Of a stretch of 64,000 nucleotides of DNA, positions 32,609 through 50,532 are shown piece after piece. The notes beneath the pieces were generated by a model. It was not told the origin of the DNA. It searched no databases and saw only the letters and a list, made by a program, of their open reading frames with translations. Numbering within the stretch: the stretch's first letter is position 1; each line of letters opens with the position of its first letter. Origin of the DNA: Clostridia bacterium (lineage in GTDB: Bacteria; Bacillota; Clostridia; Christensenellales; Borkfalkiaceae); contig JAFTWU010000004.1 of assembly GCA_017465145.1 (NCBI GenBank), positions 58,403 through 122,402 on the forward strand. The letters run 5' to 3'. Made by a program: the position numbers and the translations under genes.

Positions 32609-32645
32609 TTAAATTTTTATAAACAATTTTTAGGAGACTTTTAAT

Positions 32646-34271
32646 ATGTTACAAAACACCAAAGGCACGTCTAAACTTGGCGTAATGCTAGACTGTTCAC
32701 GCGCAGCCGTTATGAGCATTGATGAACTTAAACGCTTTATCGTATATCTTAAAGATATGGGCTATAACAGCCTTCAACTTTACACCGAAGATACATACGA
32801 AATAGATGAACCGTTATTCGGTCATCTTCGTGGAAGATATTCTAAAGCGGAACTTAAAGAAATTGACGATTTTGCTTATGAAAACGGCATTGAACTTGTT
32901 CCTTGTATTCAAACGTTAGGACACCTTACCACTCTATTTTATTGGGATAGACTTTACGATTATAAAGACAATACTAGTATTTTGTGGTGTGGTGAAGAAA
33001 AGGTTTACGACCTTATTGAGAAGATGTTTAAAACGTGTGATGAATGTTTCCGTTCTCGCACGGTAAATATCGGTATGGACGAAGCGTGGCTACTTGGTGC
33101 AGGTAACTATTACGATAAACACGGCCCCACCAAGCGTGAAGATGTTTTACTTCCCCACCTTAACCGCGTTTCAGAAATGGCTAAAAAGTATAACTTTACC
33201 TTGGTTATGTGGTCTGATATGTTCTTCCGTATGGCAGGCTATAACGAATATTACGTAAAGGGTGCGGTTATCCCTGAAGAAGTAAGAAAGAAAGTTCCCG
33301 AAAACGTTGAACTTGCTTATTGGGATTACTATACCGAAGACAAAGACCTTTACGACAATATGCTAGACTCTCACATTTCTTTCGACCGTAACGTATGGTT
33401 TGCGGGCGGTGCTTGGCGTTGGATAGGTTTTCAATCGGGCAACCAAAAGACTTTTGACACTACCCTTCCTGCAATTAAATCTTGCAATGAAAGAAATGTT
33501 AACGATATTCTAATTACCCTTTGGGGCGATGATGGTAGTGAATGTCCCGTATACGCTGCATTACCCGGTATCGTTTACGCTGCGGAATGCGCTAAGGGTA
33601 ACTACGATTTAGAAAATTCTAAAAAGAAATTTGAAGAACTCTTTGGCGAAAGTTGGGATGACTTTATGTTGTTTGACCTTAAAATGCCCGCAGACGTTAA
33701 ATTATACCGCGAAAACGCAACGGGCGCTAAAGAAATGCTTTATAGCGACCCCTTCTTAGGTAAATTTGACGGCGGTGTTTACGGCACGGGAATTGAGAGC
33801 AAAATTTACGCTGAAAAAACCGAACAAATGAAACAAGCAAAAGCACGTAGCAAAAACTACGCGTATATGTTTGATTATTATGAAAAACTTTGCCGTCTAT
33901 TATCAGTTAAATACGAACTAGGCTATCGCAGTAGATTCTTCTATCAAAAGGGCGACAAGGCTATGCTTAAAAAGGTAGTTAAAGAATACGGCTTAGCAAT
34001 TAAGTATTTAGAAGAATTTATCGAAGCGTTTAGAGTAGCGTGGTTTAAGATTAACAAACCCCAAGGCTTTGAAGTGCACGAAATTCGTTTGGGCGGTGTA
34101 ATGCTTAGATTAAAGAGTTGCAAAAAAAGACTTGAATTATATCTAAAAGGCAAGGTTGATAGAATAGATGAACTAGAAGAATCTTTTGAAAACCCATTTG
34201 TTGGCGACGTTGAAAAGGCAATTCCTATGTTTAACTGCTATCGTCAAACTGCAACCCTTAACGAAATCTAA
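32646..34271 (+). CDS. GH20-type beta-hexosaminidase, cytoplasmic (copy 2)
   Basis: 541 residues, collinear with the upstream gene along its whole length; shared blocks include GVMLDCSRAAVMS, MGYNSLQLYTEDTYEID, FLGK and GVM/IQRLK near the end. The catalytic pair is D145-E146 in NIGMDEAWLLG. Differences concentrate in loops around the active site (for example YWDRLYDYKDNTSILWCGEE against HWPTYAEICDTADIMLVGNQ in copy 1), suggesting different substrates after tandem duplication. TAGGAG ribosome site; last gene before a strong terminator. Confidence 0.85.
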   Translation: MLQNTKGTSKLGVMLDCSRAAVMSIDELKRFIVYLKDMGYNSLQLYTEDTYEIDEPLFGHLRGRYSKAELKEIDDFAYENGIELVPCIQTLGHLTTLFYWDRLYDYKDNTSILWCGEEKVYDLIEKMFKTCDECFRSRTVNIGMDEAWLLGAGNYYDKHGPTKREDVLLPHLNRVSEMAKKYNFTLVMWSDMFFRMAGYNEYYVKGAVIPEEVRKKVPENVELAYWDYYTEDKDLYDNMLDSHISFDRNVWFAGGAWRWIGFQSGNQKTFDTTLPAIKSCNERNVNDILITLWGDDGSECPVYAALPGIVYAAECAKGNYDLENSKKKFEELFGESWDDFMLFDLKMPADVKLYRENATGAKEMLYSDPFLGKFDGGVYGTGIESKIYAEKTEQMKQAKARSKNYAYMFDYYEKLCRLLSVKYELGYRSRFFYQKGDKAMLKKVVKEYGLAIKYLEEFIEAFRVAWFKINKPQGFEVHEIRLGGVMLRLKSCKKRLELYLKGKVDRIDELEESFENPFVGDVEKAIPMFNCYRQTATLNEI

Positions 34272-34320: not shown

Positions 34321-34347
34321 AAAAACCCCGAAATATTCGGGGTTTTT
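34321..34347. terminator. Bidirectional intrinsic terminator after the glycosidase operon
   Basis: A 12-bp perfect stem (34321-34332 with 34336-34347), 3-nt loop, A-run and T-run. The sequence to 34541 shows no gene. Confidence 0.9.
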
Positions 34348-34541
34348 CGTTTTATAAAACCCATATGTTGTTAATTTTTGCGCCTGAAGAATAGTAAAAA
34401 AGGCGGGATATTACTTTTACTTATAATGCTAAGCCTTTTTTCAATAATAAAAAAGGGTGTTTTTAAGCAAAATATGGGGCTATATAACAAAAGTGTTATA
34501 TAAACATAAGATTTTAATATCATAATACGGGTATCAAGCGT

Positions 34542-34570
34542 TTTACAAAAAAATTTTAATTTGCTATAAT
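34542..34570 (+). promoter_or_regulatory. Promoter of the fumC-hdr-flx-frd operon
   Basis: TTTACA (34542-34547), 17-nt spacer, TATAAT (34565-34570), about 83 nt before the first start codon. It is the only clear promoter seen before the terminator at 46.3 kb. Confidence 0.65.
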
Positions 34571-34652
34571 TATAACACGGTGAATTATAAGGGATTGCCT
34601 TGTAATTTGCCATTTAATAGGTAAAAATTTCCAACTTAAAAGGAGAATGATT

Positions 34653-36029
34653 ATGGATTATCGTATCGAACACGATTCAATGGGCGAAGTTAAAGTTCCC
34701 GCGGATCGCTATTGGGCAGCTCAAACCCAACGTAGCCACGAAAACTTTAAGATAGGCGAAGGCATTGAAACTATGCCCCGCGAAATAACCCACGCTTTCG
34801 GTATACTTAAAAAGGCTGCCGCTATTGCAAACGCTCAGCTCCGTCCCGCAAAGATGACTGACAAAAAACTTTCTGCAATATCTTCCGCATGTGACGAAGT
34901 TATCAGCGGTGCGCTCAACTCTCATTTCCCCTTGGTAGTATGGCAAACGGGTAGTGGCACGCAATCTAACATGAACGCTAACGAAGTTATCGCAAACCGT
35001 GGCAACGCTATCGTTGGTGAAAAGATTCTTCACCCCAACGACGACGTTAATATGAGTCAATCTTCAAACGACACTTTCCCCACGGCAATGCACATTTCTG
35101 CAGTTATCGCGGTAGAAGATAAACTTATCCCCGCCGTAGAACAATTAATTGCAACCTTTAAGCGTTTAGAAGAAGAAAACAAAAACGTTATCAAGTGTGG
35201 TAGAACTCACTTGCAAGACGCTACTCCCATTACTTTCGCACAAGAAATTTCAGGTTGGCGCGCAAGTTTAGAACGCGACGTAGAACTTCTTAAAAACTCA
35301 GTTAGTCCTTTATGTGAACTAGCACTTGGCGGTACTGCCGTTGGTACGGGACTTAACGCCCCCAAAGGCTTTGACGAACTAGTTGCCAAAACGGTTGCTG
35401 ATTTAACGGGTAAGCCTTTCGTAACAGCTACAAACAAGTTCCACGCGCTAACTAGTAAAGACGAACTAGTGTTCGCTCACGGCGCAATTAAAGCCTTAGC
35501 TTGCGATATGCTAAAAATTGCAAACGACGTTCGTTGGCTTGCAAGCGGGCCTAGAAACGGTCTTGGCGAAATTCTTATCCCCGAAAATGAACCCGGTTCT
35601 TCAATCATGCCGGGCAAGGTTAACCCAACCCAATGCGAAGCGGTTACTATGGTTGCCGTTCAAGTTATGGGTAACGACGTAGCCGTTGGTATGGCAGCGT
35701 CTCAAGGTAACTTTGAACTTAACGTATTTATGCCCGTTGCAGCGTATAACTTCTTACAATCTGCAAGATTACTTGCCGAAGCTATCGTATCTTTCAATGT
35801 TAACTGTGCGGTTGGTATCAAGGCAAACAAAGCAAAAATGGACTACAACTTAAAGCACTCTTTAATGCTTGTAACGGCACTCAACCCATACATCGGTTAC
35901 GAAAACGCCGCAAAGACTGCAAAACTTGCTTTCAAAGAAGATATATCTCTTAAAGAAGCGTGCGTAAAACTAGGTTTCTTAACCGAAGAAAAATTTGATG
36001 AAGTTTTCCATCCAGAAGAAATGGTTTAA
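34653..36029 (+). CDS. fumC: Fumarate hydratase class II
   Basis: 458 residues. The start at 34653 is preferred to the ATG at 34647 because AAAGGAG ends only one base before the latter. Signatures are TGSGTQSNMNANEVIANR, HPNDDVNMSQSSNDTFPTAMHI, GRTHLQDATPITFAQE and the fumarase/aspartase block GSSIMPGKVNPTQCEA. It interconverts malate and fumarate without an Fe-S cluster. First gene of the operon that ends in a fumarate-reductase-type flavoprotein, so it should supply fumarate from malate for reduction. Aspartase is the main alternative in the superfamily, but the sequence reads as FumC. Confidence 0.93.
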   Translation: MDYRIEHDSMGEVKVPADRYWAAQTQRSHENFKIGEGIETMPREITHAFGILKKAAAIANAQLRPAKMTDKKLSAISSACDEVISGALNSHFPLVVWQTGSGTQSNMNANEVIANRGNAIVGEKILHPNDDVNMSQSSNDTFPTAMHISAVIAVEDKLIPAVEQLIATFKRLEEENKNVIKCGRTHLQDATPITFAQEISGWRASLERDVELLKNSVSPLCELALGGTAVGTGLNAPKGFDELVAKTVADLTGKPFVTATNKFHALTSKDELVFAHGAIKALACDMLKIANDVRWLASGPRNGLGEILIPENEPGSSIMPGKVNPTQCEAVTMVAVQVMGNDVAVGMAASQGNFELNVFMPVAAYNFLQSARLLAEAIVSFNVNCAVGIKANKAKMDYNLKHSLMLVTALNPYIGYENAAKTAKLAFKEDISLKEACVKLGFLTEEKFDEVFHPEEMV

Positions 36030-36049
36030 CTAAATTATAGGAGACATAA

Positions 36050-36826
36050 ATGAAAGTAACATACTTTCCTGGCTGTACGTTGAAAAACAAAGCCAAACAA
36101 TTAGATATTTACGGTCATAAGTGTGCTAAAGCGCTTGGCGTAGAACTAGAAGAAATTGAAAAATGGCAATGTTGTGGTGGCGCGTTTACCACGTCTAGCG
36201 ATGAAATTGCAACTAAACTTTCTTCGGTGCGCGCGCTAAAGGAAGCCGAAAGCAAAAATCAACCTTTGGTTTCTTTGTGTTCCGCTTGCCACAACGTATT
36301 AAAGCAAACTAACCACGCTATACAAACTAACGAAACCTTTAGAGCCCGCGTAAACAACTATATGGCAGACGGCGAATATAACGGCGGGGCAAAGGTAATG
36401 CACTATCTAGAACTTTTACGCGACGTAATCGGTTACGACGCCGTTAAAGAAAAGGTAGTAAACGCCCTAAACGGCAAAAAGGTTGCGTGCTATTATGGTT
36501 GCTTGCTTTTAAGACCTTCAAAGGTAATGCAAATGGACGACCCCGAAAACCCGCAAATCATGGAAAACCTAGTTCGCGCGTTGGGTGGTGAACCGATTCT
36601 ATTCCCTTATAAAAACGAATGTTGCGGTGCTTACGTATCTTTTGAAAATAAAGATTATACCGCAGTAAAAAGTGGAAAGATTTGCAACAATGCTACATTA
36701 AACGGCGCAGATATAATTTTAACGGCTTGCCCCTTATGTAAATATAACCTAGAAAAGTGTGGCAGCGATATCCCTGTCGTATACTTTACAGAACTTTTAG
36801 CCGAAGCCTTTGGCATAAAGGAGTAA
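36050..36826 (+). CDS. hdrB: Heterodisulfide reductase subunit B-like protein (HdrB)
   Basis: 258 residues with two CCG domains: CTLKN ... WQCCGGAFTT ... LCSACHNVLK, and CYYGCLLLRP ... ECCGAYVSF ... ACPLCKYNLE. Each gives a CX(n)CCGX(n)CXXC set for noncubane [4Fe-4S] clusters that cleave disulfides in methanogens. In bacterial Hdr-Flx complexes the natural disulfide or other acceptor is uncertain. The gene begins 20 nt after fumC and overlaps the ribosome site of hdrC. With HdrC and HdrA downstream it forms a complete HdrABC set. Confidence 0.88.
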   Translation: MKVTYFPGCTLKNKAKQLDIYGHKCAKALGVELEEIEKWQCCGGAFTTSSDEIATKLSSVRALKEAESKNQPLVSLCSACHNVLKQTNHAIQTNETFRARVNNYMADGEYNGGAKVMHYLELLRDVIGYDAVKEKVVNALNGKKVACYYGCLLLRPSKVMQMDDPENPQIMENLVRALGGEPILFPYKNECCGAYVSFENKDYTAVKSGKICNNATLNGADIILTACPLCKYNLEKCGSDIPVVYFTELLAEAFGIKE

Positions 36827-36829
36827 CTT

Positions 36830-37222
36830 ATGGAAAAAAACTTAAATAACGCTAGAGAAGAAATAATTCGCCGTAGCGGTGTTAATCCTTCAAAATGTAT
36901 GAAGTGTGGTAAGTGTTCAGGTACTTGCCCCGCCTACGATGAAATGGAATATCATCCCCACCAATTCGTGTATATGGTGGAAACGGGCGATATAGAACCC
37001 CTATTGAAAAGTCAATCAATTTACCGTTGTCTTTCATGCTTTGCTTGTGTAGATAGATGCCCCCGTGGCGTTGAACCTGCAAAAATTGTTGAAGCGGTAA
37101 GACTAGAAGTAATTCGTCAGCAAGGCGCAAATCACCTTAAGGCTGAAGGCGTTGCTGAAAACTTAGATGAAGAAATTCCCCAGCAGGCAATAGTTACTGC
37201 TTTTAGAAAATACACCAAGTAA
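36830..37222 (+). CDS. hdrC: Heterodisulfide reductase subunit C-like protein (HdrC)
   Basis: 130 residues with two [4Fe-4S] motifs: CMKCGKCSGTCPAYDEMEYHP and CLSCFACVDRCPRGVEPAKI, the second being the typical HdrC C-X2-C-X2-C-X3-C-P-x-G form. It links the flavin subunit HdrA to HdrB by electron transfer. It starts 3 nt after hdrB with AAGGAG inside the end of hdrB. Soluble, no membrane segment. Confidence 0.88.
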   Translation: MEKNLNNAREEIIRRSGVNPSKCMKCGKCSGTCPAYDEMEYHPHQFVYMVETGDIEPLLKSQSIYRCLSCFACVDRCPRGVEPAKIVEAVRLEVIRQQGANHLKAEGVAENLDEEIPQQAIVTAFRKYTK

Positions 37223-37236
37223 GGAGAAATTTACAA

Positions 37237-39231
37237 ATGCAAAGAATAGGTGTTTTCGTTTGTTGGTGCGGTTCAAACATCGCTGCAACCGTTGACGTTG
37301 AAGCGGTATCACAAGCACTTGCTAAAGAACCGGGTGTAGTACACTCTGCCAACTATCAATATATGTGTTCTCAAGCGGGACAAGACCTTATCCGTGCCGC
37401 TATCAAAGAGCACAAACTAACGGGTATCGTTGTATGTTCTTGCTCACCAAGAATGCACGAAATGACCTTCCGCAAAACTGCTGAATCAGCCGGCATAAAT
37501 CCCTATATGGTAGAAATTGCAAACATAAGGGAACAATGCTCTTGGATACATAAAGATATTCTAACCGGTACTGAAAAAGCAATCGTTTTAGGTAGAACGG
37601 CTATCGCAAAGGTTAACCTAAACGCGCCCCTAACGGCAGGTGAAAGCCCAGTAACCAAGCGCGCGCTAGTAATCGGTGGCGGTATCGCAGGTATTCAAAC
37701 CGCTTTAGATATCGCAGACGCAGGTTTTGAAGTTGACATCGTTGAAAAGAACCCCACTATCGGTGGCAAGATGGCTCAACTTGATAAAACTTTCCCAACG
37801 CTAGACTGTGCTGCTTGTATCTTAACGCCTAAAATGGTAGACGTTGCTCAACACGAAAAGATTAGAATTTTCTCTTATAGTGAAGTTGCAGCCGTTAAAG
37901 GTTTCGTTGGTAACTTTGACGTAACCATTAAGAAAAAGGCGCGTTACGTAAGAGAAGACGTATGTACGGGTTGTGGTCTTTGTACTGAAAAGTGCCCTGT
38001 TAAAAAAGTTCCTAACGAATTTAACTTAGGCATGGATACCCGCCGTGCAATATATATTCCTTTTGCGCAAGCAGTTCCCAAGGTTGCTACTATCGACGCA
38101 GACTACTGTAATATGTTAAAGAACGGTAAGTGTGGCGTATGTTCAAAGGTATGTACCGCTAAGGCTATCGACTACGAACAAAAAGACACCCTTATTGAAG
38201 AAAAATACGGCGCAATCGTCGTTGCAACCGGCTTTAATCCTATCAGTATGGAAAAATTCGATGAATACGCTTACAGTCAAAGCAAAGATGTTGTAACGTC
38301 ACTTGAATTTGAACGTATAATGAACGCGGCAGGTCCTACTCAAGGTAAACTTGTTCGTCCGTCAGACGGCAAGCACCCACACACTTTGGTTTTCGTTCAA
38401 TGCGTTGGCTCTCGTTGTGCAAACTGTGCGGAAAAGGGCAAGGAATACTGCTCTAAAATATGTTGTATGTACACGGCAAAGCACGCTATGCTAACCCGTG
38501 ATAAATATCCCGATACCGACGTTTACGTATTCTATATAGACGTTCGTACCCCCGGTAAGAACTTTGATGAATTCTACCGTAGGGCAGCAGAAGAATACGG
38601 CGTTCATTACGTTAAGGGTATGGTTGGTAAGGTTATGCCTGAAGGCGACAAACTTATGGTTCGCGCATCAGACCTTATCGCAAACAAACAAATTAACATC
38701 GCTGCCGATATGGTTATCTTGGCGGCGGCTATAGAACCGGATAAATCGGCAAGAAGCATCGCTACTATGCTTACCGCAAGTATGGATACTAACGACTTCT
38801 TTACCGAAGCACACCCCAAACTTCGCCCCGTAGAAAGCCCAACGGCTGGTATATTCCTTTCAGGTGCTTGTCAAGGTCCTAAGGATATTCCCGAAACGGT
38901 TGCACAAGCGGGTGCAGCGGCAGCAAAGGTTATAGGTCTTCTTGCAAAAGATAAACTAAAAGGTAATCCTTGCGTTGCATCTTCTAACGAACTTATGTGT
39001 AACGGCTGTTCTTCTTGCGAAAGAGTATGTCCTTACGGTGCAATTTCTTACGTAGACAAAGAATTCCGTGGGCCAAACAGAACGGTGCTTGTTCGCCGTG
39101 TTGCGCAGGTTAACCCAGCGGTATGTCAAGGATGCGGTGCTTGTACCGTTGCTTGTCCTTCAGGTGCTATGGACCTTAAAGGCTTTGCAACTAAACAAAT
39201 TATGGCGGAGGTAGACGCAATATGCAAGTAA
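37237..39231 (+). CDS. hdrA: Heterodisulfide reductase subunit A-like flavoprotein (HdrA)
   Basis: 664 residues, full-length HdrA. An N-terminal HdrA domain (GVFVCWCGSNIAATVD) is followed by the FAD motif VIGGGIAGIQTALDIADAG near residue 150 and the HdrA signature TLDCAACILTPKM near 192. Ferredoxin motifs follow: CTGCGLCTEKCP near 245, a CGVCSKVC near 305, then C-terminal CNGCSSCERVCP and CQGCGACTVACP. In methanogens HdrA carries the bifurcating FAD that splits electron pairs between ferredoxin and HdrBC. All cluster ligands seen in the family appear present. Its 3' end overlaps the next gene by 10 nt. Confidence 0.9.
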   Translation: MQRIGVFVCWCGSNIAATVDVEAVSQALAKEPGVVHSANYQYMCSQAGQDLIRAAIKEHKLTGIVVCSCSPRMHEMTFRKTAESAGINPYMVEIANIREQCSWIHKDILTGTEKAIVLGRTAIAKVNLNAPLTAGESPVTKRALVIGGGIAGIQTALDIADAGFEVDIVEKNPTIGGKMAQLDKTFPTLDCAACILTPKMVDVAQHEKIRIFSYSEVAAVKGFVGNFDVTIKKKARYVREDVCTGCGLCTEKCPVKKVPNEFNLGMDTRRAIYIPFAQAVPKVATIDADYCNMLKNGKCGVCSKVCTAKAIDYEQKDTLIEEKYGAIVVATGFNPISMEKFDEYAYSQSKDVVTSLEFERIMNAAGPTQGKLVRPSDGKHPHTLVFVQCVGSRCANCAEKGKEYCSKICCMYTAKHAMLTRDKYPDTDVYVFYIDVRTPGKNFDEFYRRAAEEYGVHYVKGMVGKVMPEGDKLMVRASDLIANKQINIAADMVILAAAIEPDKSARSIATMLTASMDTNDFFTEAHPKLRPVESPTAGIFLSGACQGPKDIPETVAQAGAAAAKVIGLLAKDKLKGNPCVASSNELMCNGCSSCERVCPYGAISYVDKEFRGPNRTVLVRRVAQVNPAVCQGCGACTVACPSGAMDLKGFATKQIMAEVDAICK

Positions 39232-39656
39232 ATGAATTTAAACCCAAAATCGTTGCTTTTTGCTGTAACTGGTGTTCATATGCCGGTGCAGACCTTGCAG
39301 GTAGCAATCGTTTAAGTTACCCCGCAGACGTTAAAATTATTCGCGTTCCTTGTTCTTGCAGGGTAAACCCAATGTTTATCCTTCGCGCTTTCCAACGCGG
39401 TGCAGACGGCGTTATTATTTGCGGTTGTCACCCAGGGGATTGCCACTACACTAGCGGTAACTATTATACAAGGCGCAGAATGGCGTTGCTATTTTCTATG
39501 CTAGATTATCTTGGCATTGAAAAAGACCGTATGCGTTTAGAATGGGTATCTGCGGCAGAAGGCGCAAAATTTGCAACCACCATGAACGAATTTACCGAAA
39601 AGATAATTTCTCTTGGCGAAAATAAAAGGCTGGAGGATTTAAGATGCAAAAAATAA
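39222..39656 (+). CDS. MvhD/FlxD-type [2Fe-2S] electron-input subunit
   Basis: 144 residues, typical of the hydrogenase iron-sulfur subunit family (MvhD/FlxD). Cysteine blocks are CCNWCSYAGADLAG, PCSCRVNP and CGCHPGDCHY, each strongly conserved. In methanogens MvhD joins hydrogenase to HdrA; in bacteria FlxD joins the NAD(P)H module FlxABC to HdrA. No hydrogenase gene is near and an FlxA-like gene lies downstream, so the FlxD role is favoured. Overlaps hdrA by 10 nt and the next gene by 13 nt. Confidence 0.87.
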   Translation: MQVNEFKPKIVAFCCNWCSYAGADLAGSNRLSYPADVKIIRVPCSCRVNPMFILRAFQRGADGVIICGCHPGDCHYTSGNYYTRRRMALLFSMLDYLGIEKDRMRLEWVSAAEGAKFATTMNEFTEKIISLGENKRLEDLRCKK

Positions 39657-40633
39657 CCCGTGAAATTTTAATTGATAAAGCAGCGTTTTTACTTTCAACA
39701 GGCGTTGTGGGTAGCGTTTTCGGTTGGCGCGCAGGCGAATTCGACTATGACGTAACCCCCGCATTGTTCACCGATAAAACCGACTTAAAAAACAATTTCG
39801 TATTCGGTGATTTTTGTGGTGCAAACGTTTCTAAATATTTAATAAAAGCAACTAAAAATGCTGAAGAAAAGATTTTAGTTTTCCTAAAACCTTGCGATAC
39901 TTACTCATTTAACCAACTTTTAACCGAACACCGCTTTAACCGTGAAAAAGTTTACGTTGTTGGTATTCCTTGTGAAGGTATGGCAGACGTAAGAAAGATT
40001 AAGGAAAAAGCAGGCGAAGGCATCTTAAAAATTTCTTCTACTGAAGACGGCGTTATCGTAGACACCTTATATAACGGCACAATAAGCCTTAAAAAAGAAG
40101 ATATCTTGCTTGAAAGATGTAAAAACTGTAAAAGTAAAAAGCACGTTGCTTACGACGAACTTATCGGTGAAGACGGCACCGTTTTAGAAAACGACCGCTT
40201 TGACGAAGTTGCCGCCTTAGAGGCAATGAGCCCAGAAGAAAGATTTAATTTCTGGCAAAACGAACTATCACGTTGTATCCGTTGTAACGCTTGTCGTGAC
40301 GTATGTCCCGCATGTACTTGTGAAAAGTGCGTATTCGATAACCCCGAATCAGGTGTAGAAAACAAAGCGGCGTATAATAGTTTTGAAGAAAAGATGTTCC
40401 ATATTATCCGCGCTTTCCACGTAGCAGGGCGCTGTACCGACTGTGGTGAATGTTCAAGAGTATGTCCACAACATATTCCACTTCATTTGCTTAACAGAAA
40501 GTTTATTAAAGATATCAACCAATTCTACGGCGAATATCAAGCGGGTGAAGAAGTTGGTTCACGCGCACCTTTGGTAAACTATACCAAAGAAGATATTGAA
40601 CCTAACGACGCGGTAAACAAGGGGGATAAATAA
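39644..40633 (+). CDS. FlxB/FlxC-like dicluster ferredoxin protein with FrhB-like N-terminus
   Basis: 329 residues. The N-terminal half resembles the coenzyme F420 hydrogenase beta-subunit group (VFLKPCDTYSFNQLL, VVGIPCEGMADV, ERCKNCKSKKH); the C-terminal half has two ferredoxin motifs, CIRCNACRDVCPACTCEKC and CTDCGECSRVCPQHIP. Proteins of this shape accompany FlxA and FlxD in bacterial Hdr-Flx clusters. Whether it equals FlxB or FlxC I cannot decide from sequence alone. Overlaps the upstream gene by 13 nt; next gene starts 1 nt after its stop. Confidence 0.75.
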   Translation: MQKITREILIDKAAFLLSTGVVGSVFGWRAGEFDYDVTPALFTDKTDLKNNFVFGDFCGANVSKYLIKATKNAEEKILVFLKPCDTYSFNQLLTEHRFNREKVYVVGIPCEGMADVRKIKEKAGEGILKISSTEDGVIVDTLYNGTISLKKEDILLERCKNCKSKKHVAYDELIGEDGTVLENDRFDEVAALEAMSPEERFNFWQNELSRCIRCNACRDVCPACTCEKCVFDNPESGVENKAAYNSFEEKMFHIIRAFHVAGRCTDCGECSRVCPQHIPLHLLNRKFIKDINQFYGEYQAGEEVGSRAPLVNYTKEDIEPNDAVNKGDK

Positions 40634-40634
40634 T

Positions 40635-41660
40635 ATGCGTAAATGCAAAGTAGAAAATATTTACACCCTTTTAGGTGAAATTTCAAAAAATGCTAAACTT
40701 TATATTCCCGTTGACCAAGTAAACGGCGCAAAGTTTACTGAATATGCAGAAGGCTTAACCTTATCTAACGCCTTAAAGACGGAAAGAAGTATTAAAGACT
40801 TTTTCTTTCCCCAAACGGAAAATTTAGTTGACTTTAAGGTTTCGGGTAAAATTATTGAAATTATCGATAACCGTAGTGAAATGGAAGATTTCGTAATCTT
40901 CGGCGCACGCGCTTGCGACGTTAGAAGTATGGAAATTTTAGATAGAGTTTTTCTATCTGAACCCGTTGATACCTACTACGCTAACCGTCGTGCACACGGT
41001 ATTATAATTTCAATGGCGTGCAACCGTCCTGCTGAAACTTGTTTTTGTTCAACGTTCGGTATAGACGCGTCTAAACCCGCAGGCGATATCGTTTGCTATA
41101 AAGGTGAAAACGAATACGTTTTTGAAGGCGTAACGGAAAAGGGCAAAAACTTACTTGAAAAGTTAAATGCCGTAACGGAAAATGGCGGTGAAGATACCGC
41201 AAAAATCGTTCAAACGGAAATTAAAACTATTTTAGATAAACTTCCCTTAAAGGACGTTAAGGCTGATAAATTCGGAAAAGATAAAACGGATAAATTCTTT
41301 AACGCGCCCGAATGGAAAACGTTGTCAGAAGCGTGCCTTGGCTGTGGCACTTGCACCTTCGTTTGTCCCACTTGTCAATGCTACGATATTAAAGACTTTA
41401 ATACGAATAGCGGTGTAAAGCGTTTTAGATGTTGGGACAGTTGTATGTATTCTGACTTTACTAGAATGAGTGCAGGTCAACCAAGACCTACTCAATTAGA
41501 ACGTTTCCGCCAAAGATTTATGCATAAACTTGTATACTATCCCACCAACAACGACGGTATTTTCGGTTGTGTTGGTTGCGGTAGATGTTTATCAAGATGC
41601 CCGATATCAATGAATATCGTTAAAGTAATGAAAAAATTAGGAGAAGGTGACAATGAATAA
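40635..41660 (+). CDS. FlxB/FlxC-like dicluster protein related to anaerobic sulfite reductase subunit A
   Basis: 341 residues. An N-terminal AsrA/HydB-like region (IFGARACDVRSMEILDRVFLSEPVDTYYANRR) is followed by two [4Fe-4S] motifs: CLGCGTCTFVCPTCQCYD and CVGCGRCLSRCPISMN. AsrA-type subunits move electrons between an AsrB/FlxA flavoprotein and a catalytic unit. AsrB-like FlxA follows directly, overlapping its end by 8 nt. There is no AsrC sulfite reductase, so sulfite reduction is unlikely and an Hdr-Flx role is favoured. Confidence 0.78.
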   Translation: MRKCKVENIYTLLGEISKNAKLYIPVDQVNGAKFTEYAEGLTLSNALKTERSIKDFFFPQTENLVDFKVSGKIIEIIDNRSEMEDFVIFGARACDVRSMEILDRVFLSEPVDTYYANRRAHGIIISMACNRPAETCFCSTFGIDASKPAGDIVCYKGENEYVFEGVTEKGKNLLEKLNAVTENGGEDTAKIVQTEIKTILDKLPLKDVKADKFGKDKTDKFFNAPEWKTLSEACLGCGTCTFVCPTCQCYDIKDFNTNSGVKRFRCWDSCMYSDFTRMSAGQPRPTQLERFRQRFMHKLVYYPTNNDGIFGCVGCGRCLSRCPISMNIVKVMKKLGEGDNE

Positions 41661-42486
41661 CGTTAAAGAACCTTTAATTCCTTCAATTGGTGTTATTACC
41701 GACGTGCGTATCGATACGCCCGACGTAAAAACTTTCCGCGTAGTTACGCCCGAAGGCAAAAAAGCCTTCTTACATAAACCCGGTCAATGCGCTATGCTTT
41801 CAATCCCGGGCGTTGGCGAAGCAATGTTTTCAATAACTTCTTCACCCACAAATACCGAGTTTATGGAATTTTCCATTAAGAAATGCGGTTGTGTAACCGA
41901 ATGGTTACACCAAGCGGAAGTTGGCCAACAAGTTACTATTCGTGGACCTTACGGCAACGGTTTCCCTGTAGAAGAAAAGTTTAAGGGTAAAGACCTTTTG
42001 TTTATCGCAGGCGGTATCGGTTTAGCGCCACTTCGCTCTGTAATCAACTACGTAAGGGCTAACCGCGCAGACTACGGCAAGGTAGATATCGTTTACGGCT
42101 CTAGAAGTAAAGACGATTTAGTTGACTATAACGAAATTATATCAGAGTGGATGACGGACGACGGCATTAACGTTCACTTAACTATCGACCGCGAACAAGA
42201 AGGTTGGACTGGTCACGTTGGTTTCGTTCCCGCATACGTTAAAGAACTTAACTTTACCACCGATAAAACGGCTATCCTTTGCGGTCCGCCTATAATGATT
42301 AAGTTTACCCTTCAAGGCTTGCTTGAAATGGGCTTTGAAAAAACGCAAATTTACACTACTATGGAACTTCGTATGAAGTGCGGTATCGGTAAATGCGGAA
42401 GATGTAACATAGGCGACAAATACGTTTGTAAAGACGGTCCCGTATTTAGAATGGACGAACTTGAAGAACTCCCCGACGAATATTAA
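41653..42486 (+). CDS. FlxA/AsrB-like FAD and NAD(P)-binding reductase
   Basis: 277 residues. The ATG at 41653 is chosen: a GTG at 41647 is in frame but only 3 nt from GGAG. An FAD-binding barrel (HKPGQCAMLSIPGVGEAMFSI) is followed by the NAD(P) domain with FIAGGIGLAPLRSVINY, VYGSRSKDDLVDY and CGPPIMIKF. The C-terminus has CGIGKCGRCNIGDKYVC, a [2Fe-2S] site. The fold is that of ferredoxin-NADP reductase/AsrB. In Hdr-Flx complexes FlxA oxidises NAD(P)H and feeds HdrA through FlxBCD. Confidence 0.87.
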   Translation: MNNVKEPLIPSIGVITDVRIDTPDVKTFRVVTPEGKKAFLHKPGQCAMLSIPGVGEAMFSITSSPTNTEFMEFSIKKCGCVTEWLHQAEVGQQVTIRGPYGNGFPVEEKFKGKDLLFIAGGIGLAPLRSVINYVRANRADYGKVDIVYGSRSKDDLVDYNEIISEWMTDDGINVHLTIDREQEGWTGHVGFVPAYVKELNFTTDKTAILCGPPIMIKFTLQGLLEMGFEKTQIYTTMELRMKCGIGKCGRCNIGDKYVCKDGPVFRMDELEELPDEY

Positions 42487-42515
42487 TATTAACGGGAGAA
42501 TTAGGAGAAAAAATT

Positions 42516-43190
42516 ATGGAAAACACCGTTAGAATTTTCCTTTTTGGAAAAAAATACGAAGTACCCGATAATTTAACGATAATGTGTGCTATGGAGTACG
42601 CAGGATATAAACTTGTGCGCGGTTGTGGTTGCCGTAACGGTTTCTGTGGCGCGTGCGCAACTATCTATCGTATAAAAGGCGATAAAGAACTTCACGCGTG
42701 TCTTGCTTGCCAAACTAAAGTAGAAGACAATATGTATATTGCAACGTTGCCTTTCTTCCCCTTGGTTAAACAAGTTTACGATATTGAAAAAGTTCCGCTA
42801 AACGAACAAGTAATGATGCAATTATACCCCGAAATTTACGCTTGTATCGGTTGTAACGCTTGCACAAAGGCTTGCACTCAAGGACTTAACGTTATGCAGT
42901 ATATCGCATACGCTCAACGTGGGGATTTTGAAAAGTGTGCTGAAGAATCTTTCGACTGCGTTATGTGTGGCGTATGTTCTTCACGCTGTCCCGCGGGCAT
43001 ATCACATCCCCAAGTTGCAATGCTTGCACGCCGTATCAACGGCAAGTATTTAGCACCCGCTTGCGAACACTTAAAAGACCGCGTTCAAGAAATTAAGGAC
43101 GGCACTTTTGAAGATTTAATGCAAAAGTTAATGGGTAAACCCGTTGCCGAACTTAAAGAACTTTACAATAACAGAGAAATTGAAAAGTAG
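42516..43190 (+). CDS. Fumarate-reductase-associated iron-sulfur protein ([2Fe-2S] plus two [4Fe-4S])
   Basis: 224 residues. The N-terminal 2Fe-2S domain contains GCGCRNGFCGACATIY and a fourth Cys in CLAC. Two four-cysteine motifs follow, CIGCNACTKACTQG and CVMCGVCSSRCPAG. This domain order equals that of FrdB/SdhB and TfrB, but the last centre here is a second [4Fe-4S] type rather than a [3Fe-4S], and no quinone-site residues or membrane anchor gene are seen. It most likely carries electrons from the Hdr-Flx proteins to the flavoprotein encoded next. Confidence 0.8.
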   Translation: MENTVRIFLFGKKYEVPDNLTIMCAMEYAGYKLVRGCGCRNGFCGACATIYRIKGDKELHACLACQTKVEDNMYIATLPFFPLVKQVYDIEKVPLNEQVMMQLYPEIYACIGCNACTKACTQGLNVMQYIAYAQRGDFEKCAEESFDCVMCGVCSSRCPAGISHPQVAMLARRINGKYLAPACEHLKDRVQEIKDGTFEDLMQKLMGKPVAELKELYNNREIEK

Positions 43191-43204
43191 GAGAATAGGT
43201 AAAA

Positions 43205-44824
43205 ATGTATACGAACCCCGAAATTCTTAAATCATTAAAAAAAGTAGAAGAAACCCGTGCGCAAAGATTTGCTAATAAAGACAACATCAGGCGTATGACG
43301 GGTGAAGAAAAAGAAGAAATTCTAAAAGCATACCACCCCGACTATCGTGAAGATGCTTTCACCACCTTAAAAATCGGTGTAAATAAAGGTCAAAAAGTTC
43401 CCGTTGAACTTGCTGCTTATTTAGAAGCGCACTCAAGAATAAAGGATAAAGTCCTTGACTTGTCTAACCCCGATTACGACGTAGACGTTCTAGTTATCGG
43501 TGGTGGTGGTGCGGGTGCATCTGCCGCTATCGAAGCGCACGAAGCAGGCGCAAACGTTATGGTAGTTACTAAACTTCGTATCGGTGATGCTAACTCTATG
43601 ATGGCAGAAGGCGGTATTCAAGCGGCTGATAAACCTAACGATAGCCCCGCAATTCACTATATAGACGTTATGGGTGGCGGTCACTTTGCAAACAGGCCCG
43701 AACTTGTTTATAAACTAGTTACCGAAGCCCCCGACGCTATCGCTTGGCTTTCTAACCTTGGCGTAGAATTCGATAAAGACGAACAAGGCAATATGATAAC
43801 CACCCACGGTGGCGGTACGAGCAGAAAGCGTATGCACGCAGCAAAAGACTATTCTGGTGCGGAAATTATGCGTACTCTTCGCGACGAAGTATTTAACCGC
43901 GGTATTCCCGTAGTTGATTTTACCGCAGCGATAGAACTCATTAAAGACGACGAAGGCAAGGTTGCCGGTGCCGTATTAATGAATATGGAAACGGAAGACC
44001 TTTTGATTGCCCGCGCAAAAACCGTTGTTATCGCAACGGGCGGTGCAGGTAGAATGCACTATCAAAACTTCCCAACTAGTAACCACTACGGCGCAACTGC
44101 CGATGGTCTAGTTTTAGGTTACAGGGCAGGGGCAAAACTTTTATACCCTGACACCTTGCAATATCACCCCACGGGCGCAGCGTTCCCCGAACAAATCTTG
44201 GGCGCATTAGTTACCGAAAAAGTTCGTTCACTTGGCGCACAACTCGTTAACTGCGATGGTGAAGCGTATATTCATCCACTAGAAACGCGTGACGTAAATG
44301 CATCTGGCATTATCCGTGAATGCTCAACGCGTGACAAGGGCGTAGATACTGGCAACGGCAAGGCGGTATGGCTTGATACTCCGCTTATCGAAATGATTGG
44401 TGGCGAAGGCACTATTATGAAGCGTATCCCCGCAATGTACCGTATGTTTGCTAAATACGACATTGATATTAGAAAAGTTCCTATTTTGGTATATCCCACG
44501 TTACACTATCAAAACGGCGGTTTAGAAATTACTCCCGATGGTCAAACGGGCGTTAAAAACCTTTTCGTTGCAGGTGAAGCCGTTGGGGGTATCCACGGTA
44601 GAAACAGGCTTATGGGCAACAGTTTACTAGACATTATTGTATTCGGCAGAAACGCTGGTAAGGAATCAGCAAAAGCCGCAAAAAATACCACCGTTGGTAA
44701 ACTCACGTTATCACACGTAGATGCTTTTGAAAAGGAAATTGAAAGCGCAGGCATAACCACGGAACTTGTTTCACCGAAACTCCTTCCCGATTATACAAGA
44801 CATAGAAGTATTGAAATTAAGTAG
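43205..44824 (+). CDS. Fumarate reductase/succinate dehydrogenase-type flavoprotein subunit
   Basis: 539 residues. The FAD motif VLVIGGGGAGASAAIEAHEAGANV sits near residue 97. HGGGTSRKRMHAAKDYSGAEIMRTL, the LQYHPTGAAFPEQILGALVTEKVRSLG block with the active-site His, TRDVNASGIIRECSTRDKG and the family end block GEAVGGIHGRNRLMGNSLLDIIVFGRNAG all fit FrdA/TfrA. A helical N-terminal extension of about 90 residues precedes the FAD motif and is unusual. Placed after fumC and the electron-transfer genes, it should reduce fumarate to succinate in the cytoplasm. Another enoate substrate remains possible because this flavoprotein family is diverse in gut bacteria. Confidence 0.83.
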   Translation: MYTNPEILKSLKKVEETRAQRFANKDNIRRMTGEEKEEILKAYHPDYREDAFTTLKIGVNKGQKVPVELAAYLEAHSRIKDKVLDLSNPDYDVDVLVIGGGGAGASAAIEAHEAGANVMVVTKLRIGDANSMMAEGGIQAADKPNDSPAIHYIDVMGGGHFANRPELVYKLVTEAPDAIAWLSNLGVEFDKDEQGNMITTHGGGTSRKRMHAAKDYSGAEIMRTLRDEVFNRGIPVVDFTAAIELIKDDEGKVAGAVLMNMETEDLLIARAKTVVIATGGAGRMHYQNFPTSNHYGATADGLVLGYRAGAKLLYPDTLQYHPTGAAFPEQILGALVTEKVRSLGAQLVNCDGEAYIHPLETRDVNASGIIRECSTRDKGVDTGNGKAVWLDTPLIEMIGGEGTIMKRIPAMYRMFAKYDIDIRKVPILVYPTLHYQNGGLEITPDGQTGVKNLFVAGEAVGGIHGRNRLMGNSLLDIIVFGRNAGKESAKAAKNTTVGKLTLSHVDAFEKEIESAGITTELVSPKLLPDYTRHRSIEIK

Positions 44825-44839
44825 TTTTAGGAGTATAAA

Positions 44840-46279
44840 ATGGAAGAATTAAAACAAAGCGAACTAGGTCAAAAACAACCTAAAAAGAAAAGTCTTAAAT
44901 GGCTTTGGATTGCAATCGCATTAATAGTAGTTGCAGGTATTGCCGTTTGGTGCACCCTTAACGCTATTAAAATTGACGGAACGTTAGATTCCGACGGTAA
45001 AGTAATTCAAGGCTTAGAAAAAGCACTTACTTTAGGTGCTTTCCTTTGCGGGTTATTCTTAATTACAACCCTTGGCTATATGCTTGGCAGAATAACCATT
45101 AAGGGCGTATCACTTGGTACGGCAGGCGTATTCTTGGTTGCAATTTTATTTGGTTTCTTGTGTACCCTTATTCCAGAAGATATGCCACTACTTGGCAACT
45201 TCCACTTGCACGCTAAAGACGCCTTAAAAGGGATTTCGGCAACAACTAACCTTACGTTATATAAAAGCGCCGTTCAAAACGTCGGTCTTGTAATGTTCGT
45301 AAGTTCAGTTGGTTTTATCGCTGGTCCTAAGTTCTTTAGAAGTCTAAAACAAAACTTTAAGACCTATATTTTAATGGGCGCATTGATTATTTTTTCAGGC
45401 ACCGCTGTTGCCGTAGCGTGCAGTTTTATTCCCGCAATCGGCTCTAAATACGCAGCAGGCTTATTGTCAGGCGCATTGACTTCAACACCCGGTTATTCTT
45501 CAGCATTAGAAGCATCGGGCGATAGCGGTCTAGTTACTCTTGGTTATGCCGTTGCATATCCTTTCGGTGTAGTCGGCGTTGTACTTTTCGTTCAACTTAT
45601 GCCCAAAATCTTAAAGGCAGATATGAACTATGAAAGAAGTATGTTAAGGGCAGACGCACTCGTTACCGTAGAAAAGAAACAAGAATTATTTACTTGCGAC
45701 GATTTCGGTTTAATGCCTATCGCACTAGCAATCGTTTCAGGCTTAGTCTTAGGTGCAATCACTATTCCGCTTTCTGGTAACGGTTACCAAGAAGGTGCAC
45801 CCGTATTCTCACTTGGAACAACGGGTGGCGTACTTATTATGTGCTTAATATTCGGGCACTTTGGCAGAATCGGTAAACTCTCTTTAGAAGTTCCCGCAAA
45901 AACGGCAAAAGTATTAAGAGAATTCGGTTTAGTTCTATTCCTTGCAGGTGCAGGCGTAGACGGTGGCGTTCAATTAATCAGTCAAATCAACGCTAATGAA
46001 AGTGGCTCTATGATAGTAGTTTACGGCTTAATTATCGGTGCTGTTATGACTATCGTTCCTATGGTAGTAGGCTTTTTGGTTGGCAGAAAACTTCTTAAAC
46101 TCCCCCTTCTCAACTCACTTGGTTCTATCACAGGTGGTATGACAAGCACCCCCGCACTTGGCACGCTTATCAACACGGCGGAAACGGAAGACGTTGCATC
46201 TGCTTACGCATCAACCTATCCTATCTCACTTGTATTGATAGTTCTTGCTTGTAACCTAATGATAGGTTTAATTCCCTAA
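44840..46279 (+). CDS. AspT-type aspartate/dicarboxylate exchanger family membrane protein
   Basis: 479 residues. About ten to twelve membrane segments occur in two similar halves, with a soluble stretch near residues 255-290. Each half has the AspT/YidE duplication signature: AAGLLSGALTSTPGYSSALEASGD and NSLGSITGGMTSTPALGTLINTAE. There are no TrkA-C domains, which many AspT homologues have. The family exchanges amino or dicarboxylic acids across the membrane. At the end of an operon making succinate from malate/fumarate, a substrate/product antiport (for example malate or aspartate against succinate) is the natural inference. TAGGAG ribosome site 15 nt after the flavoprotein gene. Confidence 0.8.
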   Translation: MEELKQSELGQKQPKKKSLKWLWIAIALIVVAGIAVWCTLNAIKIDGTLDSDGKVIQGLEKALTLGAFLCGLFLITTLGYMLGRITIKGVSLGTAGVFLVAILFGFLCTLIPEDMPLLGNFHLHAKDALKGISATTNLTLYKSAVQNVGLVMFVSSVGFIAGPKFFRSLKQNFKTYILMGALIIFSGTAVAVACSFIPAIGSKYAAGLLSGALTSTPGYSSALEASGDSGLVTLGYAVAYPFGVVGVVLFVQLMPKILKADMNYERSMLRADALVTVEKKQELFTCDDFGLMPIALAIVSGLVLGAITIPLSGNGYQEGAPVFSLGTTGGVLIMCLIFGHFGRIGKLSLEVPAKTAKVLREFGLVLFLAGAGVDGGVQLISQINANESGSMIVVYGLIIGAVMTIVPMVVGFLVGRKLLKLPLLNSLGSITGGMTSTPALGTLINTAETEDVASAYASTYPISLVLIVLACNLMIGLIP

Positions 46280-46320: not shown

Positions 46321-46349
46321 AAAAACTCCCAACGTCGTTGGGAGTTTTT
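46321..46349. terminator. Bidirectional terminator between the frd-type operon and the LysR gene
   Basis: A 13-bp perfect stem (46321-46333 with 46337-46349), 3-nt loop, A- and T-runs on both sides, suitable for the two convergent transcripts. Confidence 0.9.
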
Positions 46350-46373: not shown

Positions 46374-47300
46374 TTAATTAAAATACATATTTTTTGCTTT
46401 AATAACTCTATCGATAAACATTTGGTCAAGTTTAGATAGGTGATATTTTTTGCGGTGAATAAGCACGTCTTTATAAGTTTTGGTGTTAAAATCGCATTTT
46501 AATTGCACAAGATTAAATTTATCTAATAAGTCTTGGGGGATAGGTGAAACCCACATAAAAGTGTTGGGCACTTGTTCTAAAAGTGTAAACTGAACACCGC
46601 GTTCAAACACCATTATACGCTTGTTGGTAAATTGCGAAAGTTCCGCCCTTTTAACGTCAATTTGCGGAAGTGTTGGAACGTACGGGTCGCCGTGGGTAAT
46701 TTCCATAAAGTTTTCAAGGTCGCTAATTTCCACCTTTTCCTTTTTCGCAAGGGGGTTATTTTTGGATACGGCAAGCATATAAGAAAATTCGTTAATAACT
46801 TCATATTGAAATTTCTTTTCATCAAAAAGACTCTTAAAATAAATGTCAAAACCGCTTTGATAACGCACTATGCCTAGGTCGTATTCTTCTTTTGCAATGT
46901 TCAAAATGGTGCGCATAGAGTTGGTTTCTTTATACATAATTTCGGTGGGACTGTTGGGGTCTAGCGACTTTGCAAAATCAGAAATAGCGTAAGAAAAATA
47001 ACTTGCACGGGGCACGCTTACGGTAAGCCTTAACTTGCTTTCGTTACGGTTTTCGTAAATAGATTCAATCTTTTTAATTTGTGCAAGGGCGTTTCTGGCG
47101 TAAAGCAAAAATTCTTCGCCGTCAATGGTAACTTCTATACCCTTAGAAGAACGCTTAAAAATCTTAATTTTAAGGTCGTTTTCAAGGTCTTTAATCGCGC
47201 GCGATAAGTTGGGTTGAGACGTGTAAAGATTTTCTGCAGCCTTGCTCATAGAACGGGTGTTTGCAATTTCCACCGCGTATTTCATATGTTGAATATTCAT
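46374..47300 (-). CDS. LysR-family transcriptional regulator
   Basis: 308 residues. HTH in residues 1-60 with the LysR pattern MKYAVEIANTRSMSKAAENLYTSQPNLSRAIKDLE, then an effector domain from about 90 (LRLTVSVPRASYFSYAISDF). AGTAGGTG precedes the ATG. It is convergent to the fumarate-reductase-type operon and could control it from a distance; many LysR regulators instead bind next to their own promoter, where the VanW gene lies on the other side. Target unknown. Confidence 0.88.
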   Translation of the reverse strand: MNIQHMKYAVEIANTRSMSKAAENLYTSQPNLSRAIKDLENDLKIKIFKRSSKGIEVTIDGEEFLLYARNALAQIKKIESIYENRNESKLRLTVSVPRASYFSYAISDFAKSLDPNSPTEIMYKETNSMRTILNIAKEEYDLGIVRYQSGFDIYFKSLFDEKKFQYEVINEFSYMLAVSKNNPLAKKEKVEISDLENFMEITHGDPYVPTLPQIDVKRAELSQFTNKRIMVFERGVQFTLLEQVPNTFMWVSPIPQDLLDKFNLVQLKCDFNTKTYKDVLIHRKKYHLSKLDQMFIDRVIKAKNMYFN

Positions 47301-47362
47301 AACGCACCTACTTGCTAAAATTGTTAATTCACGGCGCTTTTGCCGTTGGATATAACAATATA

Positions 47363-47391
47363 ATTATAGCGTAAATTAGATATAAAATCAA
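47363..47391 (-). promoter_or_regulatory. Promoter of the LysR gene
   Basis: On the minus strand TTGATT (47386-47391), 17-nt spacer, TATAAT (47363-47368). Confidence 0.65.
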
Positions 47392-48597: not shown

Positions 48598-48688
48598 GGA
48601 GAAATACCCAAGAGGCCGAAGGGGCTCCCCTGCTAAGGGAGTAGTACGTGTAAGCGTAGCGAGGGTTCAAATCCCTCTTTCTCCGCCA
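48598..48688 (+). tRNA. tRNA-Ser(GCU)
   Basis: 91 nt with encoded CCA. The acceptor GGAGAAA pairs with TTTCTCC; the anticodon stem CTCCC/GGGAG encloses CTGCTAA, anticodon GCT. A long variable arm, as in class II tRNAs, and the T-loop GTTCAAAT are present. The 3' 19 bases are the left attachment core of the element that follows. Confidence 0.95.
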
Positions 48689-50208: not shown

Positions 50209-50414
50209 TGTTTGTTCTCCTTTCTAAAAACGTTCTTAGGTGTTAGATTTTCATACGAGTTGTTATCTCGTACAAAGTCTAACAACATATTTGCAAGCAC
50301 CGAAGCGCTTGCTGTTAGTGTTTCACCATCTAATTCAAGTGGCGAAGTTGCCACTTCGTTGGTGGAAAGGTCAATTTCCACCTTGTTAAATTCGTCTAAA
50401 TAATGTCTTTTCAA
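50205..50414 (-). CDS. 69-residue protein coupled to the recombinase, unknown function
   Basis: Starts at TTG (50414), since no ATG is available in frame and a stop precedes; AAGGAG lies very near (2 nt from the start). It is acidic to neutral, with a helical C-terminal half (ASASVLANMLLDFVRDNNSYENL). The stop overlaps the recombinase ATG (ATGA), so the two are translationally coupled, which suggests an accessory or directionality role, though no excisionase fold is recognised. The start is uncertain. Confidence 0.55.
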   Translation of the reverse strand: MKRHYLDEFNKVEIDLSTNEVATSPLELDGETLTASASVLANMLLDFVRDNNSYENLTPKNVFRKENKQ

Positions 50415-50532
50415 ATCTCCTTAATTTTTTATTTGTGCGGATACAATGTCCTCTTTCCTGATGGCAGAACACCAATAAACTACATCTCAATAGATGCGTT
50501 GTGTTTGTTAGTAAATCTTTAACCATAAACCA
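50386..50532 (-). CDS. 48-residue small ORF with strong ribosome site
   Basis: GTG start at 50532 with AGGAGG (50539-50544) six bases upstream. The product is MVYGKDLLTNTTHLLRC followed by a basic C-terminal half rich in Arg/Lys (TNKKLRRFEKTLFRRI). It overlaps the next gene (TTG 50414) by 29 nt in another frame. The strong Shine-Dalgarno without any other usable frame is the main support; no similarity known. It may be a leader for coupled translation. Confidence 0.45.
   Translation of the reverse strand, partial: WFMVKDLLTNTTHLLRCSLLVFCHQERGHCIRTNKKLRRFEKTLFRRI

Follow-up and report, generated by a model that had tools for sequence, protein, structure and literature searches.

The closest described relative of the locus reported here is the 'succinate operon' of Pseudoclostridium thermosuccinogenes, which comprises a fumarate hydratase gene (CDQ83_RS03365), Flx-Hdr genes (RS03360-30), fumarate reductase genes (RS03325-20) and a possible succinate transporter gene (RS03315) (PMC7282089). 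Its authors assume that fumarate reductase is linked to the reduction of ferredoxin (Fd) via Flx-Hdr, citing Ramos 2015 and a 2019 preprint by Koendjbiharie and van Kranenburg; the operon was up about 4-fold at low CO2, and the organism is also described with a GTP-dependent phosphoenolpyruvate carboxykinase (GTP-PEPCK), Rnf and Flx-Hdr (PMC7282089). The DNA analyzed here, referred to as the window, is a 64,000-nucleotide stretch of contig JAFTWU010000004.1 from a Clostridia bacterium, and it contains an operon of eleven close-packed, same-strand genes (34647-46279) in which fumarase, Hdr-Flx, fumarate reductase and transporter genes follow the same block order. The P. thermosuccinogenes operon has 1+7+2+1 genes if its tags step by five, a comparison that uses the published locus-tag list, with gene count from tag spacing rather than from sequences, and that involves another organism, in which the operon ends with a gene labeled as encoding a hypothetical protein (PMC7282089). 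Since both the operon and the fumarate/Fd idea were published in 2019-2020, neither is novel; what is new here is how widespread the operon is, the existence of a wider FrdBA family with varying partners and evidence that points to exchange of frdA within the operon. We consider it fairly probable that the product of the operon is an NAD(P)H:fumarate reductase, soluble and independent of quinones, in which an electron pair is split at HdrA between fumarate and Fd.

Hdr-Flx genes are also found with fumarate reductase genes in tubeworm symbionts, where tfrAB are interspersed with flxABCD-hdrABC in a reductive tricarboxylic acid (rTCA) cycle cluster with korABCD, and Hdr-Flx has been proposed to feed thiol:fumarate reductase and oxoglutarate oxidoreductase by direct electron transfer (PMC6315080, PMC11636981). 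This cluster is like that of the window in mixing fumarate reductase genes with those of Hdr-Flx, and unlike it in belonging to autotrophic Gammaproteobacteria, in the TfrAB type of its reductase and in its ATP citrate lyase and oxoglutarate oxidoreductase. A first-pass annotation of the window had named a heterodisulfide or an unknown acceptor as the end point of known Hdr-Flx clusters, a claim that is not supported in view of these fumarate-linked examples (PMC7282089, PMC6315080). In Desulfovibrio alaskensis, Hdr/flox and fumarate reductase are treated as separate systems in the sections concerned, where Hdr/flox-1 was unimportant in the authors' own pyruvate fermentation tests, contrary to Meyer 2014, and Hdr/flox is said not to have been studied biochemically at that time (PMC4215793). 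The frdAB genes without an anchor gene and the metVF-Hdr cluster described in PMC7325909 are unlike the window operon, and the terms heterodisulfide, Hdr and bifurcat are absent from the available text of a complex II review (PMC10238741). No biochemical test of bifurcation by this type of operon was found in the literature searched.

All eleven genes proposed in the first-pass annotation were identified by family searches and are listed below in their order, with subunit names that denote kind and not equivalog status, as almost none of the redox subunits reaches its curated NCBIfam cut-off.

34647..36029 (+), fumC, class II fumarate hydratase (TIGR00979, 710.8 bits, above cut-off)
36050..36826 (+), hdrB-like, two CCG domains (PF02754) and ten cluster-ligand cysteines (SdhE 151 bits, HdrB 140 bits, both below cut-off)
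36830..37222 (+), hdrC-like, two [4Fe-4S] motifs (TIGR03290, 64 bits, below cut-off)
37237..39231 (+), hdrA-like, FAD plus Fe-S, candidate bifurcating subunit (HdrA2 model, 789 bits, below cut-off of 1100)
39222..39656 (+), mvhD/flxD (PF02662, 189 bits)
39644..40633 (+), flxB, AsrA-like dicluster protein (weak model matches)
40635..41660 (+), flxC, HydB/AsrA-like dicluster protein (PF17179, 105 bits; HydB-type models below cut-off)
41647..42486 (+), flxA, FAD/NAD(P)-binding reductase of the HydG/AsrB type (NF006220, 238 bits, below cut-off; PF00175, PF00970 and PF10418 above cut-off)
42516..43190 (+), frdB-like, [2Fe-2S] plus two [4Fe-4S] motifs (CxxCxxCxxxC twice; no [3Fe-4S] pattern)
43205..44824 (+), frdA-like flavoprotein (PF00890, 222 bits; TfrA model, 335 bits, below cut-off of 718)
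44840..46279 (+), AspT-type exchanger, candidate succinate exporter (PF06826; TIGR01625, 149 bits, above cut-off; 11 hydrophobic segments)

Intergenic gaps range from -14 to +29 nt, with three overlapping gene pairs and two others 1 and 3 nt apart, and a purine-rich sequence like a ribosome-binding site lies ahead of every gene start. The start of fumC may be at 34647 or at 34653, and the latter, as originally annotated, has the better spacing to AGGAG. By hydropathy, FlxB has one marginal hydrophobic segment (1.67 against a threshold of 1.6) and the nine operon proteins other than FlxB and AspT have none; family searches together with the hydropathy of all eleven proteins revealed no membrane anchor subunit. 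A soluble system with no quinone anchor, as first proposed, is thus supported, the redox subunits having no clear membrane segment.

The operon shares all seven subunit types of FlxABCD-HdrABC of Desulfovibrio vulgaris, the subject of Ramos 2015, for which the acceptor is said to have been taken to be a disulfide and in whose operon FrdAB is reportedly missing. HdrA aligns over residues 3-661 of 664 with a solved HdrA (5odc_A), and HdrB, the only CCG-domain protein found in the genome, has ten cysteines that match the ligands of the two non-cubane clusters in solved HdrB and are invariant in a 14-row alignment that includes the window. The models closest to FrdA and HdrB, both with scores below cut-off, are TfrA of TfrAB and SdhE of the E-type SdhABE (8-methylmenaquinol:fumarate reductase), respectively. 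Unlike TfrAB and SdhABE, however, the window has a separate hdrB plus HdrC, HdrA and Flx, with no membrane attachment seen, and its FrdB and HdrB are products of separate genes (at 42516 and 36050) and not fused; unlike quinol:fumarate reductase (complex II), it has neither the membrane anchor subunit nor the [3Fe-4S] pattern of reference FrdB. In the E-type SdhB of Wolinella, the partner of an HdrB-like SdhE, a second [4Fe-4S] cluster replaces [3Fe-4S] (PMC2680327), and FrdB of the window likewise has a second [4Fe-4S] motif where [3Fe-4S] is expected. Because HdrB scores best with SdhE and keeps its ten cluster cysteines, and because FrdB has this second [4Fe-4S] motif, HdrB would be the natural bridge from HdrA to FrdB.

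The best reading of these genes is fumarate reduction driven by NADH, probably with bifurcation. FlxA would oxidize NADH (or NADPH), and FlxB/FlxC and MvhD would relay the electrons to the HdrA flavin, where the pair would be split, one branch leading via HdrC, HdrB and FrdB to FrdA, which would reduce fumarate to succinate, and the other to the reduction of Fd. Malate formed via GTP-PEPCK would be converted to fumarate by FumC, AspT may export succinate or exchange C4 acids, and reduced Fd could be used for ion pumping by Rnf or by an NADH-type [FeFe] hydrogenase. A comparable case of bifurcation is butyryl-CoA dehydrogenase/Etf, and to lift one further electron pair from NADH to Fd costs about 100-180 mV. 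With potentials of +33 mV for fumarate/succinate and -320 mV for NAD (PMC5861303), the energy gap from NAD to fumarate is about 350 mV and bifurcation at HdrA, with one Fd reduction, would therefore be affordable. If this mechanism is true, gut Clostridia would gain energy from the formation of succinate, an important gut metabolite, via Fd and Rnf and without a quinone-linked fumarate reductase, and the many conserved operons give a wide choice of enzymes for testing.

The operon is strongly conserved in close relatives. A scan of GTDB genomes by FrdA gave 581 confirmed matches, and the best 80, which are the closest and not a random sample, were used; 21 of these loci are too short upstream to be judged, since the test for the block needs at least 7.3 kb upstream of frdA. 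The full HdrBCA-MvhD-FlxBCA-FrdBA block is present in all of the 59 long-enough loci, with fumC in 52/55 and aspT in 37/50 of the loci that extend far enough to show them. Among these best 80, the named records nearest by FrdA come from Clostridia assemblies bearing the titles reindeer, horse faeces and goat colon, as well as from the Clostridiales assembly RUG12826. Related genomes gave 24 loci with this FrdA, and the block is complete and in the same order in all 19 that are uncut by a contig edge, while the five cut loci have the same gene order as far as their sequence runs. Chance grouping of the operon genes is excluded by this conservation (19/19 and 59/59 loci), and the concern that homologous operons might usually lack either the Hdr or the Frd half did not hold for close relatives. 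Across 61 related genomes, scored for frdA at ≥62% identity and for hdrA at E ≤ 1e-30, both genes occur in 28, frdA only in two, hdrA only in none and neither in 31 (Fisher value 2e-15, kinship ignored); of the two frdA-only cases, one is on a contig whose sequence begins within flxA and the other is a fragment from an assembly that is 61% complete, and some of the 31 genomes with neither gene carry distant flavoproteins with 30-37% identity to FrdA.

This co-occurrence of the two halves bears on a different proposal, in which the substrate of Hdr-Flx is an unknown disulfide, with FrdAB as an independent enzyme that has only the promoter in common with it or is fed by the resulting thiols. The non-cubane clusters of HdrB reduce disulfides in methanogens, and the window HdrB retains all of the cysteines of both. 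Flx-Hdr is also described, in the account of the succinate operon, as passing electrons to Fd and thiols (PMC7282089). However, a model of DsrC found no match in the genome, and FrdB has no CCG domain to receive electrons from thiols, so HdrB would be the link anyway. With the halves found together in 28 genomes and hdrA never alone, a disulfide as the acceptor appears unlikely.

A wider family of FrdBA was seen when 398 genomes were sampled across the phylum, of which 39, the window's own included, have FrdA at E ≤ 1e-100. The 39 loci other than the window (from 38 genomes, one with two copies) have FrdA of 51-62% identity, and FrdB adjoins FrdA in 37 of them, the exceptions being L204, where it is not adjacent, and L185, which is cut. 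HdrA is in reach in 16/39 loci, five with all Flx subunits and eleven with an HdrC-HdrB layout. Among the former, L203 has an order near that of the window except that hdrC precedes hdrB, and the same gene set with FrdBA ahead of HdrBCA-MvhD-FlxBCA occurs at L175/L209, L181/L210, L192/L211 and L196/L212. The latter have HdrC-HdrB, one or two HdrA, MvhD, a weak FlxB-like protein, FrdB and FrdA (L174, L176, L178, L182, L186, L189, L191, L194, L195 and L201, with L200 similar), L191 and L194 being cut so that they show HdrA onward only. By eye, the next genes of L174 look like a pair for a 2-oxoacid:ferredoxin oxidoreductase, and most of its sister loci have downstream genes of similar length; this second Bacillota layout resembles the rTCA cluster of the tubeworm symbionts. 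On a quick FrdA tree of 51 rows, with the four short loci left uncounted, the state 'Hdr in reach' versus 'not' requires at least three changes, with gains and losses indistinguishable. A tentative generalization, to which we give not quite even prospects, is that FrdBA is a plug-in soluble fumarate reductase joined repeatedly to Hdr electron-splitting machinery in the Bacillota, with HdrB as a general adaptor between HdrA and FrdB and fumarate as a common terminal acceptor of flavin-based bifurcation. Its architectures would be Hdr-Flx-FrdBA in gut Clostridia, the reordered form of this, an HdrCB type accompanied by 2-oxoacid:ferredoxin oxidoreductase and either one or two HdrA, and an HdrCB-FrdBA type that lacks HdrA.

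The active site of FrdA supports fumarate as its substrate. FrdA aligns with the complex II flavoproteins of E. coli and mycobacteria, apart from an N-terminal extension of 90 residues that lies outside PF00890, and it retains five positions that we take to have the catalytic roles of their counterparts: His of QYHPTG, Thr-Glu, Arg of RDV, His of HY.NGG and Arg of HG.NRL. None of these varies across 17 aligned rows, one of them the window, although residues around the first His differ in L034; the Arg of RDV (Arg362 of E. coli FrdA) was matched by reading the motif, as the printed alignment is off there. An Asn (GDAN) occupies the position of the His that presumably binds FAD covalently in E. 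coli FrdA, and the FAD of the window protein is therefore probably not covalent. FrdA shares its fold class with urocanate reductase, aspartate oxidase and ketosteroid dehydrogenase, the catalytic loops of its structural model are of low confidence, and by eye genes of the MmgE/PrpD type adjoin the distant L204 and L206, a hint of other acids there, so FrdA might act on another unsaturated acid or be an L-aspartate oxidase. Against this, its catalytic positions match those of fumarate reductases, it has no Glu at what we take to be the specificity position of aspartate oxidase, and the nadB model gives 262.3 bits, far below the cut-off of 452.75. FumC, moreover, is encoded in nearly all close loci, and genes resembling those of class I fumarase or malic enzyme by eye adjoin L184, L202, L179 and L199. 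Specificity for another enoate, which the first-pass annotation had named as a potential refutation, is accordingly very unlikely for the window protein, with a more mixed outcome for distant members, several of which lie beside genes like those of C4-acid enzymes and others of which, as far as neighbors were read by eye, do not.

The surrounding metabolism is fermentative. The host genome (1.5 Mb, 24 contigs, 94% complete) encodes GTP-PEPCK, malic enzyme, RnfC, a B1-type hydrogenase and an A6-type (NADH-linked) [FeFe] hydrogenase that scores below the A6 cut-off and above the general cut-off for group A and has a NuoF-like protein nearby; it gave no match to a model of ATP-PEPCK and contains no second protein matching FrdA at E ≤ 0.001. 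Bifurcating enzymes are reversible in principle, and the operon could in that case encode a confurcating succinate dehydrogenase that uses succinate and reduced Fd to reduce NAD+. The 2-oxoacid:ferredoxin oxidoreductase-like genes of L174 and a succinyl-CoA synthetase-like gene near L193, both read by eye, would be in line with this direction. In contrast, GTP-PEPCK, FumC and a possible exporter form the context in the window, and succinate is a product of P. thermosuccinogenes, whose gene list is the same (PMC7282089), which leaves the reverse reaction highly improbable.

Fumarate reduction with bifurcation must be weighed against several observations that tell the other way. Besides the scores of the redox subunits noted above, both bifurcation and a physical complex are predictions here. 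The rise of the P. thermosuccinogenes operon was not significant for every gene and the RNA results on transhydrogenation are described as ambiguous (PMC7282089), and tfrAB of the tubeworm symbionts departs from the expression pattern shared by its cluster (PMC6315080, PMC11636981). RnfC was the Rnf subunit searched for and found, the genome has no match to a PYC/OADA domain, and its sole Ldh_1_N-family protein scores 342 bits as lactate dehydrogenase versus 307 bits as malate dehydrogenase, both above cut-offs, so that the malate dehydrogenase step is unsure. In the wider family, HdrCB occurs without HdrA in 4/39 loci, and there is no Hdr in the fetched stretch of 15/39 and of four more with <3.2 kb upstream (19 in total). 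FrdBA can, judging from the 15 loci with no Hdr in reach, work with other donors. The neighbors were read by eye in ten of the 19 loci without Hdr and include pyruvate carboxylase (L170), class I fumarase with malic enzyme (L184), malic enzyme (L202 and L179) and the succinyl-CoA synthetase-like gene of L193; among those read at L198, L204, L205, L206 and L208 nothing resembles fumarase or malic enzyme, and cytochrome-like proteins are beside L179, L205, L206 and L208. On the evidence of these neighbors, distant members of FrdBA may rely on different donors and perhaps act on different acids.

The Hdr-less loci also favor a simpler possibility, namely that the operon is a plain wire from NADH to fumarate that serves only to regenerate NAD+ without reducing Fd, and such an enzyme would show the same genes. 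Yet HdrA retains its flavin and Fe-S motifs in all 59 long-enough loci of the best 80, and the available drop of about 350 mV would go unused although the organism has RnfC; we therefore regard a plain wire as unlikely. The functional reading as bifurcating fumarate reduction is likely: gene content and conservation support the coupling of Hdr-Flx to FrdAB, alongside a source of fumarate and an exchanger for carboxylates, as originally put forward. The earlier observation is confirmed, and the reading built on it is partly supported overall.

The frdA gene of the window (43205-44824) appears to have a history unlike that of its neighbors. Over 76 loci, FrdA identity to the window is anticorrelated with that of HdrB, HdrC, HdrA, MvhD, FlxB, FlxC and FlxA (-0.23 to -0.45) and has a correlation of 0.03 with that of FrdB; these loci were chosen by FrdA, which narrows the range of FrdA identity, and include likely duplicate contigs (L033/L060, L034/L061, L036/L108 and L037/L118). 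On a tree of FrdA the window groups with L033, L034, L062, L063 and L035, with a value of 98 in the Shimodaira-Hasegawa-like approximate likelihood-ratio test (SH-aLRT). On the HdrA tree, a constraint that keeps this group intact costs 542 log units (approximately unbiased test, p-AU 1e-43). Both trees are of 37 chosen loci plus the window, the tested clade was named after the identity table had been viewed, and the L050 row is a 12% fragment. Since the two trees give the window different relatives, they point to an exchange of frdA inside a conserved operon. L033, L034 and L063 are also placed elsewhere on the HdrA tree, and hence the exchange of parts between whole operons, with order kept, seems to be common. 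At L050 (G047:C46), frdA (~12004-13653) has an in-frame TAG near codon 458, either an assembly error or a pseudogene.

The operon is flanked by two strong bidirectional hairpins, and its upstream region contains further candidate signals.

34321..34347 (both strands), terminator-like hairpin of 12 pairs, upstream of the operon
34482..34501 (no strand), perfect dyad ATATAAC-N6-GTTATAT, candidate operator
34542..34570 (+), promoter-like site TTTACA-17-TATAAT, TG-extended, a consensus match only (11/12), upstream of fumC
46321..46349 (both strands), terminator-like hairpin of 13 pairs, downstream of the operon

The two hairpins have the longest stems in the scanned region. The site at 34542-34570 is the best promoter-like site, but 31 such sites were found in the scan versus 29.6 expected by shuffling, so that one promoter for the whole operon is only an inference. 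An exact copy of the dyad also lies upstream of fumC in L043 (3255-3274), whose LysR is 78% identical to that of the window, and a copy with two mismatches (47350-47369) is ahead of the LysR-like gene at 46374-47300. Two matches with ≤2 mismatches arose in 27/100 shuffles for the window, hence this is not unusual by chance, and in 0/200 shuffles for L043. No copy was found in L055 (LysR 76% identical), whose contig, however, ends inside hdrA. The dyad is a candidate operator, perhaps of the LysR-type regulator. A reading of the dyad as a Rex operator was rejected, as the half-sites are oriented opposite to the Rex consensus. Separately, a Rex-like protein (by eye) is encoded past the operon, 0.4 kb downstream of frdA, in L089 and L095.

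Elsewhere in the window, two adjacent similar genes at 30971-34271 (545 and 541 aa), glycosidase-like by eye, resemble a tandem duplication. At 48667-58146, a large serine recombinase-like gene is followed by genes that look by eye like restriction, methylation and ATPase genes, possibly a mobile defense island.

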